Source of the DNA: Pseudomonas alcaligenes
GTDB taxonomy: Bacteria > Pseudomonadota > Gammaproteobacteria > Pseudomonadales > Pseudomonadaceae
Direction of reading: 5' to 3'
DNA length: 64,000 nucleotides
NCBI RefSeq assembly: GCF_014490745.1
Contig: NZ_LZEU01000001.1
Coordinates: 2,631,501 to 2,695,500, forward strand
The notes beneath the pieces are model-generated. The model was given only the letters and a program-made list of their open reading frames with translations, ran no database searches and was not told the DNA's origin. Positions 21,939 through 32,240 of the stretch are shown in pieces (the first letter of the stretch is position 1; each line of letters begins with the position of its first letter). A program made the position numbers and the translations under genes.

Positions 21939-22242
21939 GGTCACGCCTGCTCCGTGCTTAGAGGTACCGAGGTACCCATGCGTTTTTGCACAGATCCGCC
22001 AATCCGCTGATGTGTATTTGTGCCTTTCCCCAAAGGCACGAACACGCATGCCAACGAAACCGTAAAAGCGCCAAGGCGTGTAATCGGCATTACGCAAACC
22101 AGGAAAGACACGGAGGCACCTCCGCGGTTCTGATGAAATCCGCCAGTACGGGTTTCCGTAGAAGCACAAAAGCATCGGCAATCAAGCCAATGAGTTAAAC
22201 ATAACGTGGTTTTGATTCTCTCTCGCCCCGACGCTTCTGTCC
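21939..22242. promoter_or_regulatory. Divergent region between DUF2958 and XRE regulator
   Basis: Two palindromic features are seen. GGTACC-GA-GGTACC lies at 21963-21976. A perfect hairpin GTGCCTTT-CCCC-AAAGGCAC lies at 22020-22039. They may be operator sites for the adjacent XRE protein or a transcript end. The divergent promoters must be here. Confidence 0.4.
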
Positions 22243-28259: not shown

Positions 28260-28266
28260 CCTTGTT

Positions 28267-28349
28267 TGCGCAATTGCGTTGATCTGACCAGATAATTGCA
28301 TTGCCGTTGACCAATCGAATGCATCGTACTTGACCGGCAGAAACCGCCC
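28267..28349 (+). repeat. Left terminal inverted repeat of the cassette
   Basis: Starts TGCGCAATTGCGTTGATC and ends with ACCGGCAGAAACCGCCC. Inner units AATTGCGTTGATCTGACCA and AATTGCATTGCCGTTGACCA repeat each other. Its partner is at 31451-31553 in reverse complement. Confidence 0.7.
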
Positions 28350-28588
28350 AATAGCAGTCATCTGCTGCAGATCACCGAAAAGCAGTCGTAAAGGAATAGT
28401 CCAGCCTTCCTCATCACTGATAATTGTCTATACAGTCAGCCCGTAAACGCATGTGGTGTGACCTGTTCCCCGATTTCAGTACCACGCTGAACTTAGTAGA
28501 GTCTGTTTCCGAGCAGGAGACGATAGTGAAGAAGCATACTTCGTTGAGCTAATACCCACTTGTGGACGCCAGGGGGTATGCGTCTTAC

Positions 28589-30148
28589 TTACTGAGGGCG
28601 CATCAGAAGAGGGTTATTGCTGCGGGGCATTTGACAATCCAAGCTCCGTGAAACGTCAATAAACACACAGCAGGGGATATGTTGCCACGAGTAACCCGTC
28701 GATTTTACTCTTGGCGCGGTCGATGCCGCGCGGTGGTGTAGCGCACCCGGAAAGACCGGCAATACCGATGGCATGCTTGTGCTAGATACCCTGTTATCTG
28801 CAATTACCTTGTCATTCTTAGATCTATCAACGAAAGCAAAAGTGCTGATCGCAATAGCCGCTATCAGGAGTACCGCTCCCCCACCGATCACAGACCACTT
28901 GTAAATCCGCTCAGATTTACCCACGGGCTCGGTGACCATTGTTTTGTAGTCATCAGATGATAGAAATCGATACAGCTTCAATTGCCACTGCGTACGCAGA
29001 GATCGCTGCACCAAAATAAAGTGCCATCCGGAAAGCGCGATGAGCACCACGTACCCGAATGCGATGACCATGACGACCAGGATGATCCATGGGTTTAATG
29101 CCACACTCACGCGAGCGACGATCATCCCAAGCCCAACAGCAAGCGCAGAAGCAACTGCAGCTACCGTTTGCCGAGTGGCATCGGTCGCCTTACCAGTCTC
29201 CTCGGTGACAGCCTTGCGTAAGTCTCCCAACGACTTAAGGGTGTCTTTGGTTACCTCGGAAATGGACATTTGGTAAGCGATCTTAGCGCATTCAAATGCA
29301 GCTGCGATGTTGTCCCGAAAGTAGCTCACCACCTCTCCGTCTGAGCGTCCCGATCTGGCAATCTCAGTGGAAAGCAGTACATGCTTAATTTCCGCCTCCC
29401 TGGAGTTCTCATATACCCAAGAAGTCGGCTCATGCAGCAGATCGAAGTCACCCAGTCCAATGCTGTTGCGGCGCACAGGGTTATCCCCTAAGGCCTCTAG
29501 GGTGAGCTTAGGAGGCCCTTTGAAAATGAGTTTGAAATCTATGCTCTCGACTTCATTGGCAATGCACCTGCCCAATGCCTCATAGGCAAATTGCGCCCAC
29601 AGAATGTGAAAAGGCTCCGACTCATTGAGCTTATGATTTTCAACGAGCAGCCAGTGCTGAACATTGTCAGGCACGACTCGAACGTTCGAGGCTTCCTTGA
29701 CCAACAGCCGAGGTGCTTTCGTGGATGATGTGGCTATGATGATCAGATCATCGTCCCAGCCGCTCAGCGTGCGGGCTTTGCAATTAATGGGATGCGAAAG
29801 CCCCATCACCCGCCAACATGAAGCTGGGTGCCCTTGCCTTAGATGGTCGATCAGCCCGCACTCCGTGAGCAGATATAACGTATCGGCGTTTTTGCGTTCG
29901 CCGATGGGTTTGTCGAAAACAATTAGGTAGCCTTCGTCTCCCTCTTCGATCTCATCCGCATCGTATGCGTTAAATGCATGATCAAGTAGCTGATACCGAC
30001 ACCCAATCGCCTCAAGGGCCTTGATGACCTGCTCCGCGGTGCTCGATTTCAGCTCTGATACCGAGACAGTTGCATCACTCTCGCTGATTAGCGCTTGCCC
30101 AGTTTTCGCCAGGTCATTTAAGAGGTTGGCCAGGGGGAGTGGCGACAA
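28589..30148 (-). CDS. Unknown three-helix membrane protein (second gene of cassette operon)
   Basis: A 519-residue protein I do not recognise. Residues 1-320 look cytoplasmic and globular, with no known catalytic motif. An amphipathic helical stretch (SISEVTKDTLKSLGDLRKAV) leads into likely membrane helices at about 333-352, 355-378 (WIILVVMVIAFGYVVLIAL) and 416-438 (VIGGGAVLLIAAIAISTFAF), then a polar tail of about 80 residues. The preferred start is TTG at 30148, since AAGGAG lies 7 bases before it; this overlaps the upstream gene by 35 bases, suggesting translational coupling. A cytoplasmic sensor joined to a membrane effector is one reading; nothing proves it. Confidence 0.65.
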   Translation of the reverse strand: MSPLPLANLLNDLAKTGQALISESDATVSVSELKSSTAEQVIKALEAIGCRYQLLDHAFNAYDADEIEEGDEGYLIVFDKPIGERKNADTLYLLTECGLIDHLRQGHPASCWRVMGLSHPINCKARTLSGWDDDLIIIATSSTKAPRLLVKEASNVRVVPDNVQHWLLVENHKLNESEPFHILWAQFAYEALGRCIANEVESIDFKLIFKGPPKLTLEALGDNPVRRNSIGLGDFDLLHEPTSWVYENSREAEIKHVLLSTEIARSGRSDGEVVSYFRDNIAAAFECAKIAYQMSISEVTKDTLKSLGDLRKAVTEETGKATDATRQTVAAVASALAVGLGMIVARVSVALNPWIILVVMVIAFGYVVLIALSGWHFILVQRSLRTQWQLKLYRFLSSDDYKTMVTEPVGKSERIYKWSVIGGGAVLLIAAIAISTFAFVDRSKNDKVIADNRVSSTSMPSVLPVFPGALHHRAASTAPRVKSTGYSWQHIPCCVFIDVSRSLDCQMPRSNNPLLMRPQ

Positions 30149-31169
30149 GACTGTTCTCCTTGATTTGTTTGGTATCAATCACAATCTGTTTTCCCCCTCC
30201 AGGCTGATCCACTACACGAACATTCGGATTGTTGTCGATGTCTAGAAAGGTAATGGTGACGCCTTCTACTGTGACAAGCTTTCTCAACGAGGGCTGTCGG
30301 AGAACGGTGCGGTCAGGCTTAAATTCCAACTCGTGAAGCTTGCTGTCCTTGACACGCCGACGAGTTTCTCGCTCCAGATGCTTGCGGATCTTGTCATCCT
30401 GAGGATCGCCAGCGGCAAAAAGCACGGCTTCAACAATGGCATCCTCATTGACCTTCATCCTTCGACCAAGCGTTGCCTGAGCAGCCTTGAAAGCTTTAGG
30501 AACGTCTTCGCCAGGCAAGTCCGCCTTGCAGGCCTTCAACGCTCGCCGAAGGATTTCTCGCGCCTTCCTGCTCAGTTCCTCATTGGAAATAGCCCTATCC
30601 ACACCCAGGAACTTTGCAAAATAGTCGGCGAGATCAGGCGCTAGTTTCTTCCGATCTTTGGCAGACACTTCAGGCTCTGCCACGCCACCGACAACTCGAA
30701 CAAGAGCAGTCTTCTGGACAGCCTTGTTGTCATCGATGAGCGCCGTTACGATGCGCCGGAGGGCAGCTTCAGGCTTATCCCCATCCTGCTCTAGGGCCAT
30801 CCGGTAGTCGTATTTGATGAGACTGTAGATCTTCGTCTGAGAGTCACTCACCGATAGCTCGAACATACACAGGACGCCATCCGCACTACCACCTACGTGC
30901 TGCCCATTGAAGTTACGTGCCAGGCTTTGTGCTCCTCGCTCAAAAGTCTCCACCCCTGTAGCTATCGCTTCGATTTCCTTCCGAGTGGTAGAGGTTGTCT
31001 TGAAAGAAAAAATCGGGTCGGCCGCAGTCTCCAAAATTTTGGTAAGAAAAAACTCCGAGTGCTCCGGCTTCCGCTCAGGCATGGCATCGAATGCCTTCCC
31101 GCCGACTACGTGCAAAATCCATCGTTTGATTTTGACGGAGTCCTGCTCCTGATCCGTGAAAAAGCCCAT
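30114..31169 (-). CDS. NdpA-like (37-kDa nucleoid-associated-type) protein, first gene of cassette operon
   Basis: A 351-residue soluble protein. The N-terminus (VKIKRWILHVVGGKAFDAMP), the GGSADGVLCMFELSV strand, YSLIKYDYRMALE and LADYFAKFLGVD resemble the nucleoid-associated NdpA/YejK family (PF04245); the match is by eye and distant. Family members bind DNA. GGAGGG precedes the ATG at 31169. The gene shares an operon and a 35-base overlap with the membrane protein gene; both lie inside the inverted repeats. Together they look like a self-contained accessory system, possibly against phage. Confidence 0.5.
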   Translation of the reverse strand: MGFFTDQEQDSVKIKRWILHVVGGKAFDAMPERKPEHSEFFLTKILETAADPIFSFKTTSTTRKEIEAIATGVETFERGAQSLARNFNGQHVGGSADGVLCMFELSVSDSQTKIYSLIKYDYRMALEQDGDKPEAALRRIVTALIDDNKAVQKTALVRVVGGVAEPEVSAKDRKKLAPDLADYFAKFLGVDRAISNEELSRKAREILRRALKACKADLPGEDVPKAFKAAQATLGRRMKVNEDAIVEAVLFAAGDPQDDKIRKHLERETRRRVKDSKLHELEFKPDRTVLRQPSLRKLVTVEGVTITFLDIDNNPNVRVVDQPGGGKQIVIDTKQIKENSLVATPPGQPLK

Positions 31170-31450
31170 CGACCCTCCATATCTTCTGTTCAGCGTCAAG
31201 CGCAGACATTTCAGCCGGCAGCAACGGCGCGAGTATTAACGAGTGTTCAGACCGGAAATCTGTAGGTTTCTGGACTCCAGTGTAAGGACGACCCCTTACG
31301 CCAGATGGGCATAGAGGTTATGGAGATCACATTGGGGTGGCAAGTAGCCATTGCTCGAAATCCTGAGATGAGCCGCCCCGTGTTTCTAGACGCATCCAAC
31401 TGCCCTTTGGACTACCCCCGCGCCCGTAGACACACCCGGTCTATGCTTCT
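31170..31450. promoter_or_regulatory. Promoter region of the cassette operon
   Basis: A non-coding stretch between the NdpA-like start and the right inverted repeat. A 78-codon plus-strand frame from 31305 runs into the repeat and has no recognisable domain. The operon promoter should be here. Confidence 0.4.
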
Positions 31451-31553
31451 GGCCGGTTTCTGCCGGTCAAATTTGGAGGGGGCTGCTCAAGTAGGATGCG
31501 AACTGGTGGTCAACTGCAATGCAATTGGGTGGTCATGCTAATGCAATTTCGCA
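31451..31553 (-). repeat. Right terminal inverted repeat of the cassette
   Basis: Read inward on the minus strand it starts TGCGAAATTGCATTAGCATG and continues CAATTGCATTGCAGTTGACC, then has an extra TTGAGCAGCCCCCTCCAAAT before TTTGACCGGCAGAAACCGGC. On the plus strand a tandem pair GGTGGTCA...AATGCAATT is seen at 31505-31549. Confidence 0.7.
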
Positions 31554-31723
31554 CCTTGATCGCCGGAAGGGCCTAGACCTGCCCCAAACACGCGCCAGCG
31601 CTGCCCCTAGGCATGCCTGAGCGCTTCTTAGACTTCTTTTATGGGGAGTGACGGAGCACTGTTTTGCACCACGAATTTATCTAGGGCCTGGCGTGCTAGA
31701 TAAACCACGTTCGAGCCGCAAAT

Positions 31724-31757: not shown

Positions 31758-31763
31758 CCAAAT

Positions 31764-32079
31764 TGGTGCCCGAGGCCGGACTCGAACCGGCACGCCTTTC
31801 GGCGGGGGATTTTCGTCCCACTTCGGCTTTCGCCGCCGCCCTGCAAATCGCAGAACGTTCGTGGGCTGGAGCACGCCTTCACCATAGCCTTGCGGCCGTA
31901 GGTGCCCGCCGTCTGCTCTCTACACCTTCCCAAGCAAGGCTTGGGCTTGGCTCGGCGTTGGCTCGGACACCGAAGCATCCAGGGCTTTCGCCGAATTTGA
32001 CGGGCTTCACTTCGGACGTTTCCCTCCGAAGGCTCAAATTGTTTAAGTCCCCTGTGTCTACCGATTTCACCACTCGGGC
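31764..32079 (-). tRNA. tRNA-Leu(UAA) interrupted by a group I intron
   Basis: Exon 1 (32079-32045) is GCCCGAGTGGTGAAATCGG continuing to GGGGACTT; exon 2 (31813-31764) starts AAAATCCCCC and ends CTCGGGCACCA. Acceptor arms GCCCGAG/CTCGGGC pair perfectly, and after removal of 231 bases the anticodon arm GGGGA-CUUAAAA-UCCCC is perfect, giving anticodon UAA. Long variable arm and T-arm (CCGGTTCGAGTCCGG) are present, and CCA is encoded. The joined tRNA is 85 bases. Splicing must work if this is the only intact UAA-reading gene. Confidence 0.9.
31814..32044 (-). ncRNA. Group I intron (IC3-like ribozyme) in the tRNA-Leu anticodon loop
   Basis: The 231-base insert ends in G and follows a U, as group I introns do. 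P1 can form from GGACUUAAA and UUUGAGCC with the conserved U-G pair at the splice site. P2 is CUUCGGA/UCCGAAG. GTCAAATTCGGCGAAA, CAACGCCGAGCCAAGC, GAAGGTGTAGAGA and TATGGTGAAGGC match the Azoarcus/Agrobacterium tRNA introns almost word for word. P7 is GAGCA/UGCUC where those have GACUA/UAGUC, a compensated change. The site, after U34 of the UAA anticodon, is that of cyanobacterial tRNA-Leu introns. No homing endonuclease is encoded. Confidence 0.9.
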
Positions 32080-32240
32080 GGAGTGCGCAACACACAAAAA
32101 CACATACAGCTACTTACTGGCGCCTAGCTGGCCCCTAGCCCGCCAAGACTAACTACGAAGTTACGTCCTGGCTACTCGCAACTTATTGCCACCGTTGACT
32201 TTTCAGCCCAACTGGACAAGCCAAAAATGCTTGACAAGTC

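Follow-up and report, generated by a model that had tools for sequence, protein, structure and literature searches.

We have analyzed a stretch of 64,000 nucleotides of Pseudomonas alcaligenes (GCF_014490745.1, contig NZ_LZEU01000001.1, positions 2,631,501 to 2,695,500 of the forward strand), the whole of which is called here the window. Within it, a segment of 3287 bp (28267-31553) bounded by inverted ends TGCG...CGCA is very probably a non-autonomous cargo transposon of the IS21 type or, in an older term, a mobile insertion cassette. It looks like one member of a large family of IS21-type cargo elements, most of them devoid of a transposase. The same ends were found around many different gene sets across Pseudomonas, so that a large common pool of accessory genes is probably mobilised by a single rare enzyme.

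An earlier reading of this DNA, made from the sequence only, had described a transposase-less 3.3-kb cassette with inverted ends, and this description held. The outer inverted arms (28267-28338 and 31482-31553, 72 nt) are 74% complementary and the inner ones (28330-28356 and 31444-31470, 27 nt) 89%. No istA or istB was found in the cassette by tblastn, the best match anywhere in the window being at E 3.8 and outside the cassette. The sequence-only reading had counted two repeated units per end. Actually, each end is made of a terminal T followed by three tandem units of 23 bp, for example GCGAAATTGCATTAGCATGACCA and CCCAATTGCATTGCAGTTGACCA. When up to 3 mismatches are allowed, the 20-base core of the unit, AATTGCATTGCAGTTGACCA, is found twice in the window, once per end, and 100 shuffles gave no copy. 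Six ends of three other Pseudomonas plasmids were made into a profile, with the window left out, and this profile matched both ends of the cassette (Table 1), the next-best match in the window having an E value of 2.2. The G+C content of the cassette was 52.1%, compared with 65.1% on the left side (20-28.3 kb) and 62.4% on the right side (31.6-36 kb). The bases at the two junctions, CCTTGTT and CCTTGAT, had been taken for a 7-base direct duplication. This claim stands in part: the two copies are there as a putative target duplication, but they match at 6 of 7 positions. A match as good as this one was found in 1 of 462 control flanks paired wrongly on purpose of control, that is, left and right flanks taken from different elements.

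We have searched for the same ends elsewhere, as the sequence-only reading had proposed, and they do surround other gene sets. Three plasmid records had the ends without the two cargo genes of the window. The element of pD4A-46 (P. fluorescens), of 13.6 kb, contains istA and istB together with nSTAND3-Mrr and ApeA-type HEPN genes. That of the ERDD5:01 plasmid (P. frederiksbergensis) spans 15.3 kb and combines istAB with an RHS/VgrG/Hcp set of type VI secretion. The third, in pPniHBP1_1 (P. nitroreducens), is the largest element seen (28.3 kb); it has no istAB and bears genes related to arsenic, cadmium and efflux. Of 398 genomes of the genus, 241 had at least one match to an eight-end model that included the two window ends (E <=0.001). 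Among 229 genomes sampled from the class, the genome of the window alone matched (0 of 228 others). Both scans were run with Infernal's stricter filters.

For comparison we used 22 elements: 16 pairs of ends from genomes, the three plasmid elements, the window cassette, L107 from pF061_1 and L052 from P. viridiflava (loci are designated L and genomes G). The genome elements are convergent pairs up to about 20 kb among the top matches listed, with few candidates scored per genome. Four convergent pairs of 22-24 kb stand outside the set, as does L106, which is the same chrA element at the same site as L090. istAB was present in 4 of the 22 elements (L043, L044, L052 and L100). Counting the elements located by their ends, the figure was 3 of 21, L052 being outside this count because it was found through its IstA. 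The longest array seen, with about seven tandem units, was an end in L043 (48482-48650).

Perfect target duplications of 5 or 6 bp flanked 15 of the 22 elements, and the mis-paired flanks gave 3 of 462 at 5 bp or more. Short elements with perfect duplications, such as L094 (1.35 kb) and L088 (1.48 kb), have no istAB. Empty sites, also among the proposed checks, were obtained for three relatives, though not for the window cassette: in pCAR1 for the pD4A-46 element (6-bp overlap), in three genomes for the L091 element and in three genomes for the L094 element (5-bp overlap in both cases). In the search for an empty site of the pPniHBP1_1 element, the left flank matched its own record alone. In 12 single-contig genomes, chosen because they had matches, the 107 ends detected formed 27 neighbouring convergent pairs within 30 kb, where 1.57 would be expected at random, and 9 neighbouring divergent pairs. 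As a separate observation, L087 and L096, from different genomes and both without a duplication, have one junction flank in common (CTATCTGTTGTTAGAGCTGT) in opposite orientation, which suggests nested or rearranged insertions at one site.

The enzyme linked to these ends could be traced through the relatives. The IstA proteins of pD4A-46 and ERDD5:01 are 65% identical, contain rve and Mu_transpos_C_2 domains and have a partner that matches IstB_IS21. They align with the IstA of IS5376 (PDB 8b4h, 8q4d) at E ~1e-20, including three acidic positions that we take to be the catalytic DDE. In all 16 close-clade entries with istB (IstA identity of 65-100%) the unit array was located no more than 40 bp from the 3' end of this gene, and none of 22 loci with an IstA of 36-42% had it beside istB, indicating that the array belongs to one IstAB clade. 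The assignment of the ends to the IS21 family by the sequence-only reading is thus supported. Since L100 and L109 represent the same place, the 16 entries correspond to 15 places, and some of the others may be a single genome present in two collections. Among the matches listed, an IstA of at least 65% identity was found in six of 298 genomes, full length in G037, G070 and G115, split over contigs in G136, as a contig-end fragment in G143 and as a 48-amino-acid (aa) piece in G200; a separate IstA group at 36-43% identity was common among the same matches. The ends are far more widespread than the close-clade IstAB, which accompanies them in the three end-located elements mentioned above.

Other enzymes have been considered as well. 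Mobilisation by the distant IstA clades was rejected on the 22 loci devoid of this array beside istB, and mobilisation by the IstA of the same genome (37-38% identical) was rejected since no such array lies near it. At L115-L118, L120-L122 and L124-L127 the inverted repeats beside istAB are built of another unit, TTCCACG...TGGCCA, ...CGGACA or ...TTGGACA. The spacing of the TTCCACG-type arrays is, by eye, 23 bp too.

The close-clade loci contain more than istAB. Two further genes, coding for proteins of 346 aa and 87 aa, are found beside istA, each in 15 of 18 loci. The loci without them (L055, L056 and L105) all hold a partial istA. Neither gene was found in the 16 loci of the ~40% IstA group (L112-L127) or in 17 istAB-less loci, the window included. 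The 346-aa protein had no match in Pfam, and neither protein had one in NCBIfam. Where an organism is named for a match of the 346-aa protein, it is Pseudomonas, with the exception of one gammaproteobacterial metagenome-assembled genome. In the genome of the window itself, L142-L143 (C1 ~540000-544500) encode a distant IstA and IstB (37% and 42%) together with an 87-aa-like gene (47%) and a 346-aa-like match that is weak. The reading frame that comes next is also present in G093 (L144). This is possibly another kind of IS21-type element.

Inward of the arrays, a GGCAGAAA-type motif (up to 4 mismatches, with a pattern derived from the window and two relatives) lies within 200 bp of 20 of the 44 ends of the 22 elements, when 0.23 would be expected from the element cores. 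None of the ends has it in the outward orientation. In 16 of the 20 copies the motif begins at 69, 89-91 or 114 bp, in phase with the 23-bp unit. Our guess is that a host factor, or one of the two extra proteins (346 aa and 87 aa), may act there.

These data are consistent with the following mechanism. The ends would be arrays of 23-bp sites for one IS21-family IstA clade, and IstA would bind two or more units at each end. IstA and IstB coming from a second element of the same cell would pair and cut both ends, IstB would pick the target, and the whole 3.3-kb unit with its two cargo genes would be inserted with a short target duplication, like the 5-6 bp of the relatives. The island described below would carry the cassette between cells, because the cassette sits at the edge of what appears to be a conjugative island. 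We infer from sequence that an IstAB of the close clade works on these ends in trans, and that the copy in the window came by such an event.

Several points weigh against this interpretation. The genome of the window has no close-clade IstA, the best one being 37-38% identical. A family end lies at a distance of 5.5-6.1 kb from the distant loci L145 and L147, whose istAB has inverted repeats of its own. The duplication has one mismatch in two elements (L095 and the window), and five of the 22 (L043, L087, L092, L096 and L107) have none; that of the window, besides being imperfect, is of 7 bp, which is atypical because the relatives have 5-6 bp. In the set of 107 ends, 53 were outside any neighbouring convergent pair. 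Finally, no empty site for the window cassette was found in 298 genomes, with two candidate stretches scored in each, so that one could be missed.

Distinctly improbable, in our estimation, is that the cassette is an internal-deletion derivative, that is, a once complete cargo transposon that lost its istAB after insertion at this place and never moved in trans. The autonomous relatives do bear istAB along with cargo, and the IS3-type fragment found inside the cassette (Table 1) implies some rearrangement, but neither the window nor 16 further loci without istAB contained any trace of istA, istB or the 346-aa gene. Besides, elements without istAB outnumber those with it, and the short ones with perfect duplications (L094, L088) are most simply explained if they move as such. 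It is hardly credible that the ends were left by two separate IS21-type insertions flanking the genes by chance since, even if the flanking repeat is imperfect and many ends have no partner (107 ends gave 27 pairs), both ends face inward with all three units and the inner motif in each, the cassette is 10-13 points lower in G+C than its surroundings, CCTTG is common to both flanks and the relatives have empty sites.

Movement in trans as a cargo transposon remains our preferred reading of the cassette, and the features that compose it are collected in Table 1. The IS3-type fragment in the left part of the cassette is 85-88% identical to seven P. aeruginosa plasmid records and 90% identical to one genome. 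Under the match, an IS3 transposase is annotated in 3 of the 7 plasmid records (ISPa32-type in one).

Table 1. Features of the cassette, in window coordinates.
Feature	Position	Strand	Evidence or remark
Putative target duplication, left half, CCTTGTT	28260-28266		Sequence; 6/7 vs right half
Left end: T + units 28268-28290, 28291-28313 and 28314-28336; start TGCG	28267-28336	+	Six-end profile, E 6.9e-14
Inner motif GGCAGAAACCGCCCAATAGC, immediately inward of the unit array	28336-28355	+	Motif search over 44 ends
IS3-family (ISPa32-type)-like fragment, remnant within the cassette	28457-28535		DNA matches in plasmids and one genome
Cargo gene 2, 519 aa	28589-30148	-	Longer start possible at 30178
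Cargo gene 1, 351 aa, putatively NA37-type (NdpA/YejK-like)	30114-31169	-	Overlaps gene 2 start; longer start possible at 31199
Inner motif GGCAGAAACCGGCCAGAAGC, right end	31445-31464	-	0 mismatches to the motif pattern
Right end: units 31530-31552, 31507-31529 and 31484-31506 + terminal base; TGCG... inward	31484-31553	-	Six-end profile, E 5.2e-16
Putative target duplication, right half, CCTTGAT	31554-31560		Sequence; 6/7 vs left half

The cargo of the related elements was varied. According to Pfam, PADLOC and NCBIfam, L101 contains MkoA/MkoB, of the system named Mokosh; L092 a TIR protein matching PDC-S35; L091 PDC-S29 with HNH, and PDC-S02; L093 a type I restriction-modification system; L044 nSTAND3-Mrr and ApeA-type HEPN genes; L089 HEPN/RES; and L096 a caspase-domain protein. 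L052 bears an AAA_21/RecF-like gene, a UvrD-type helicase and arsenic genes. According to the annotation of the records, the element shared by L106 and L090 carries chromate efflux and PadR genes, and L107 agmatinase and a catabolic set. The cargo of L097, L099, L100 and L102 looks catabolic, judging from the reading frames, and the proteins of L087, L094 and L095 had no Pfam match. We claim no enrichment of any kind of cargo, because the sample is not random. Two lone ends of the family were seen on other plasmids: one in L104 (pQBR103, 22056-22133) beside merR of a mercury-resistance operon, and one in L103 (IncP-1gamma plasmid QKH54, 19996-20119) adjoining hcfRABC. Neither had a partner in the stretch inspected, of 45 kb and 40 kb, respectively.

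In the window cassette, the two-gene operon that the sequence-only reading saw in place of istAB was confirmed as two overlapping minus-strand genes, each with many homologues. Gene 1 and gene 2 homologues co-occur, several matches of both searches being on contigs of equal length. Pfam NA37 (PF04245) was reached by 30 of 51 aligned homologues of the gene 1 product, but not by the window protein itself. The predicted model of the gene 2 product has a confident globular N part, long helices and a disordered C end. It is a coiled-coil protein and probably a membrane one (the membrane stretch was judged by eye), and one of its homologues is named transmembrane protein by its source. A known defence system as cargo is ruled against by PADLOC, in which neither window protein matched any model; a scan of 43 members of the gene 2 alignment gave one match, PglX at E 0.005. 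Foldseek searches of the PDB with both predicted models gave nothing at E 0.001 or better, and on this result we rejected the idea of a Kiwa-like pair, in which a membrane protein goes with a DNA-binding protein. In profile searches, each cargo protein had a single weak match among PDB sequences (E 0.005 and 0.93).

As to the role of the pair, we tentatively place defence ahead of regulation of the island. That the NA37 protein and the coiled-coil protein form a two-gene anti-phage or anti-plasmid pair seems a serious possibility, if somewhat short of an even chance. Several sister elements bear genes of the defence type (L101, L092, L091, L093 and L044), the two genes keep company across homologues, and in L031 the homologous pair is near AbiTii and PIN_8 genes. 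Against it, the pair of L028 is found among ordinary metabolic genes, and neither PADLOC nor the structural comparison provided a relative. The other role considered, by analogy, would be control by the NA37 protein of gene expression or transfer of the host island. There is a precedent in the integrative and conjugative element PAPI-1, in which, according to the available text of PMC8565334, NdpA2 with TprA relieves MvaT repression of the transfer genes. The cassette adjoins RPA, ParB, DUF932 and RadC genes, as such a role would have it. However, a transcriptional role does not account for a partner that is probably a membrane protein, and in L028 and L031 the pair sits among genes of other kinds, so that we consider island control rather unlikely.

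The genes to the left of the cassette code for RPA, DUF736, ParB_N, DUF932 and RadC, which we take to be a usual core of conjugative islands. The cassette, beside radC, looks to be at the edge of an integrated conjugative island, and the mobile setting near radC described in the sequence-only reading was found as stated. In G093 (L027, 3932-6598) the same flanks enclose another insert of 3 kb, with a gene for an 888-aa ATPase-like protein between radC and the right flank. We rejected G093 as an empty site because of this different insert, which lacks the ends described here. The presence of an unrelated gene between the same flanks suggests that the place may be a hot spot of insertion. Further to the right (31760-32090), pieces of a tRNA-Leu gene were seen by eye at either side of ~230 bp, perhaps the attachment site of the island; ARAGORN detected only tRNA-Cys, tRNA-Gly and tRNA-Ser in the window.

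IS21 is usually described as a two-gene insertion sequence (IS). A class of cargo-bearing and mostly transposase-less elements would explain the movement of many accessory genes in Pseudomonas without a visible transposase. Scanning for the 23-bp array delimits the cargo exactly, including two-gene systems like that of the window, and so provides candidates for defence screens. With these ends, the idea that a single rare IstAB acts in trans on a large pool can also be put to the test.

Tn7-like transposons, which have a DDE transposase with an AAA+ partner, multi-site ends and accessory cargo, are similar in outline. They differ in that the genes of the relatives described here are IstA/IstB (rve/Mu_transpos_C_2 and IstB_IS21), and no TnsB, TnsC or TniQ domains were found by Pfam in the two window proteins. 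We would give even chances to a broader proposal, a genus-wide Tn7-like lifestyle built on IS21. A rare driver of four genes (346-aa, 87-aa, IstA and IstB) would act in trans on a larger pool of transposase-less cassettes of ~0.7-28 kb with its 23-bp-unit ends, shuttling defence, metal and catabolic operons. On this proposal, the 346-aa and 87-aa proteins would be the first examples, in an IS21-type system, of accessory or target-choosing factors, and the GGCAGAAA-type inner motif might be their site of action.

Among IS21 elements themselves, the parts of PMC10122671 available describe the published members as two-gene elements with 5-bp duplications, and state that the IstA of IS5376 needs two repeats per end and is active in vitro with two left or two right ends. 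Both properties fit the closely similar ends found here and movement in trans. Duplications of 7 and 8 bp are listed for Paracoccus IS21 members in the available part of PMC3281130. Repeated-site ends, a TG start and CA finish, a short duplication and IstA/IstB relatives tied to the same ends are all found in our family. The window cassette itself has at least two repeated sites and TG...CA termini; it differs in having no istAB, in bearing cargo, in its three units per end and in the inner motif. The autonomous relatives differ by the addition of the conserved 346-aa and 87-aa genes and of cargo.

IS21 elements are also known to move other genes as composite segments, such as the 16.8-kb segment between two ISPst3 copies in pJBCL41 (PMC6713103, in the part available). 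There, two whole IS copies flank the cargo, and the cassette has the ends alone. Miniature inverted-repeat transposable elements, short and non-autonomous, are thought to move in trans (PMC3189936, in the part available), but the family described here bears whole genes or operons and not ends alone. We found no report of IS21-type cargo transposons or of IS21-based mobile insertion cassettes in open-licence PMC full texts, and the available portions of PMC2718517 and PMC10293859 report neither. Mobile insertion cassettes have IS ends with passenger genes replacing the transposase, with examples in Bacillus cereus and, for qnrS2, in Aeromonas (PMC3281130 and PMC4444841, as far as their available text goes). 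The cassette of the window has their structural traits, IS-type inverted ends, passenger genes and no transposase gene, and the class to which it appears to belong departs from them in reaching 28 kb and in being spread through one genus.

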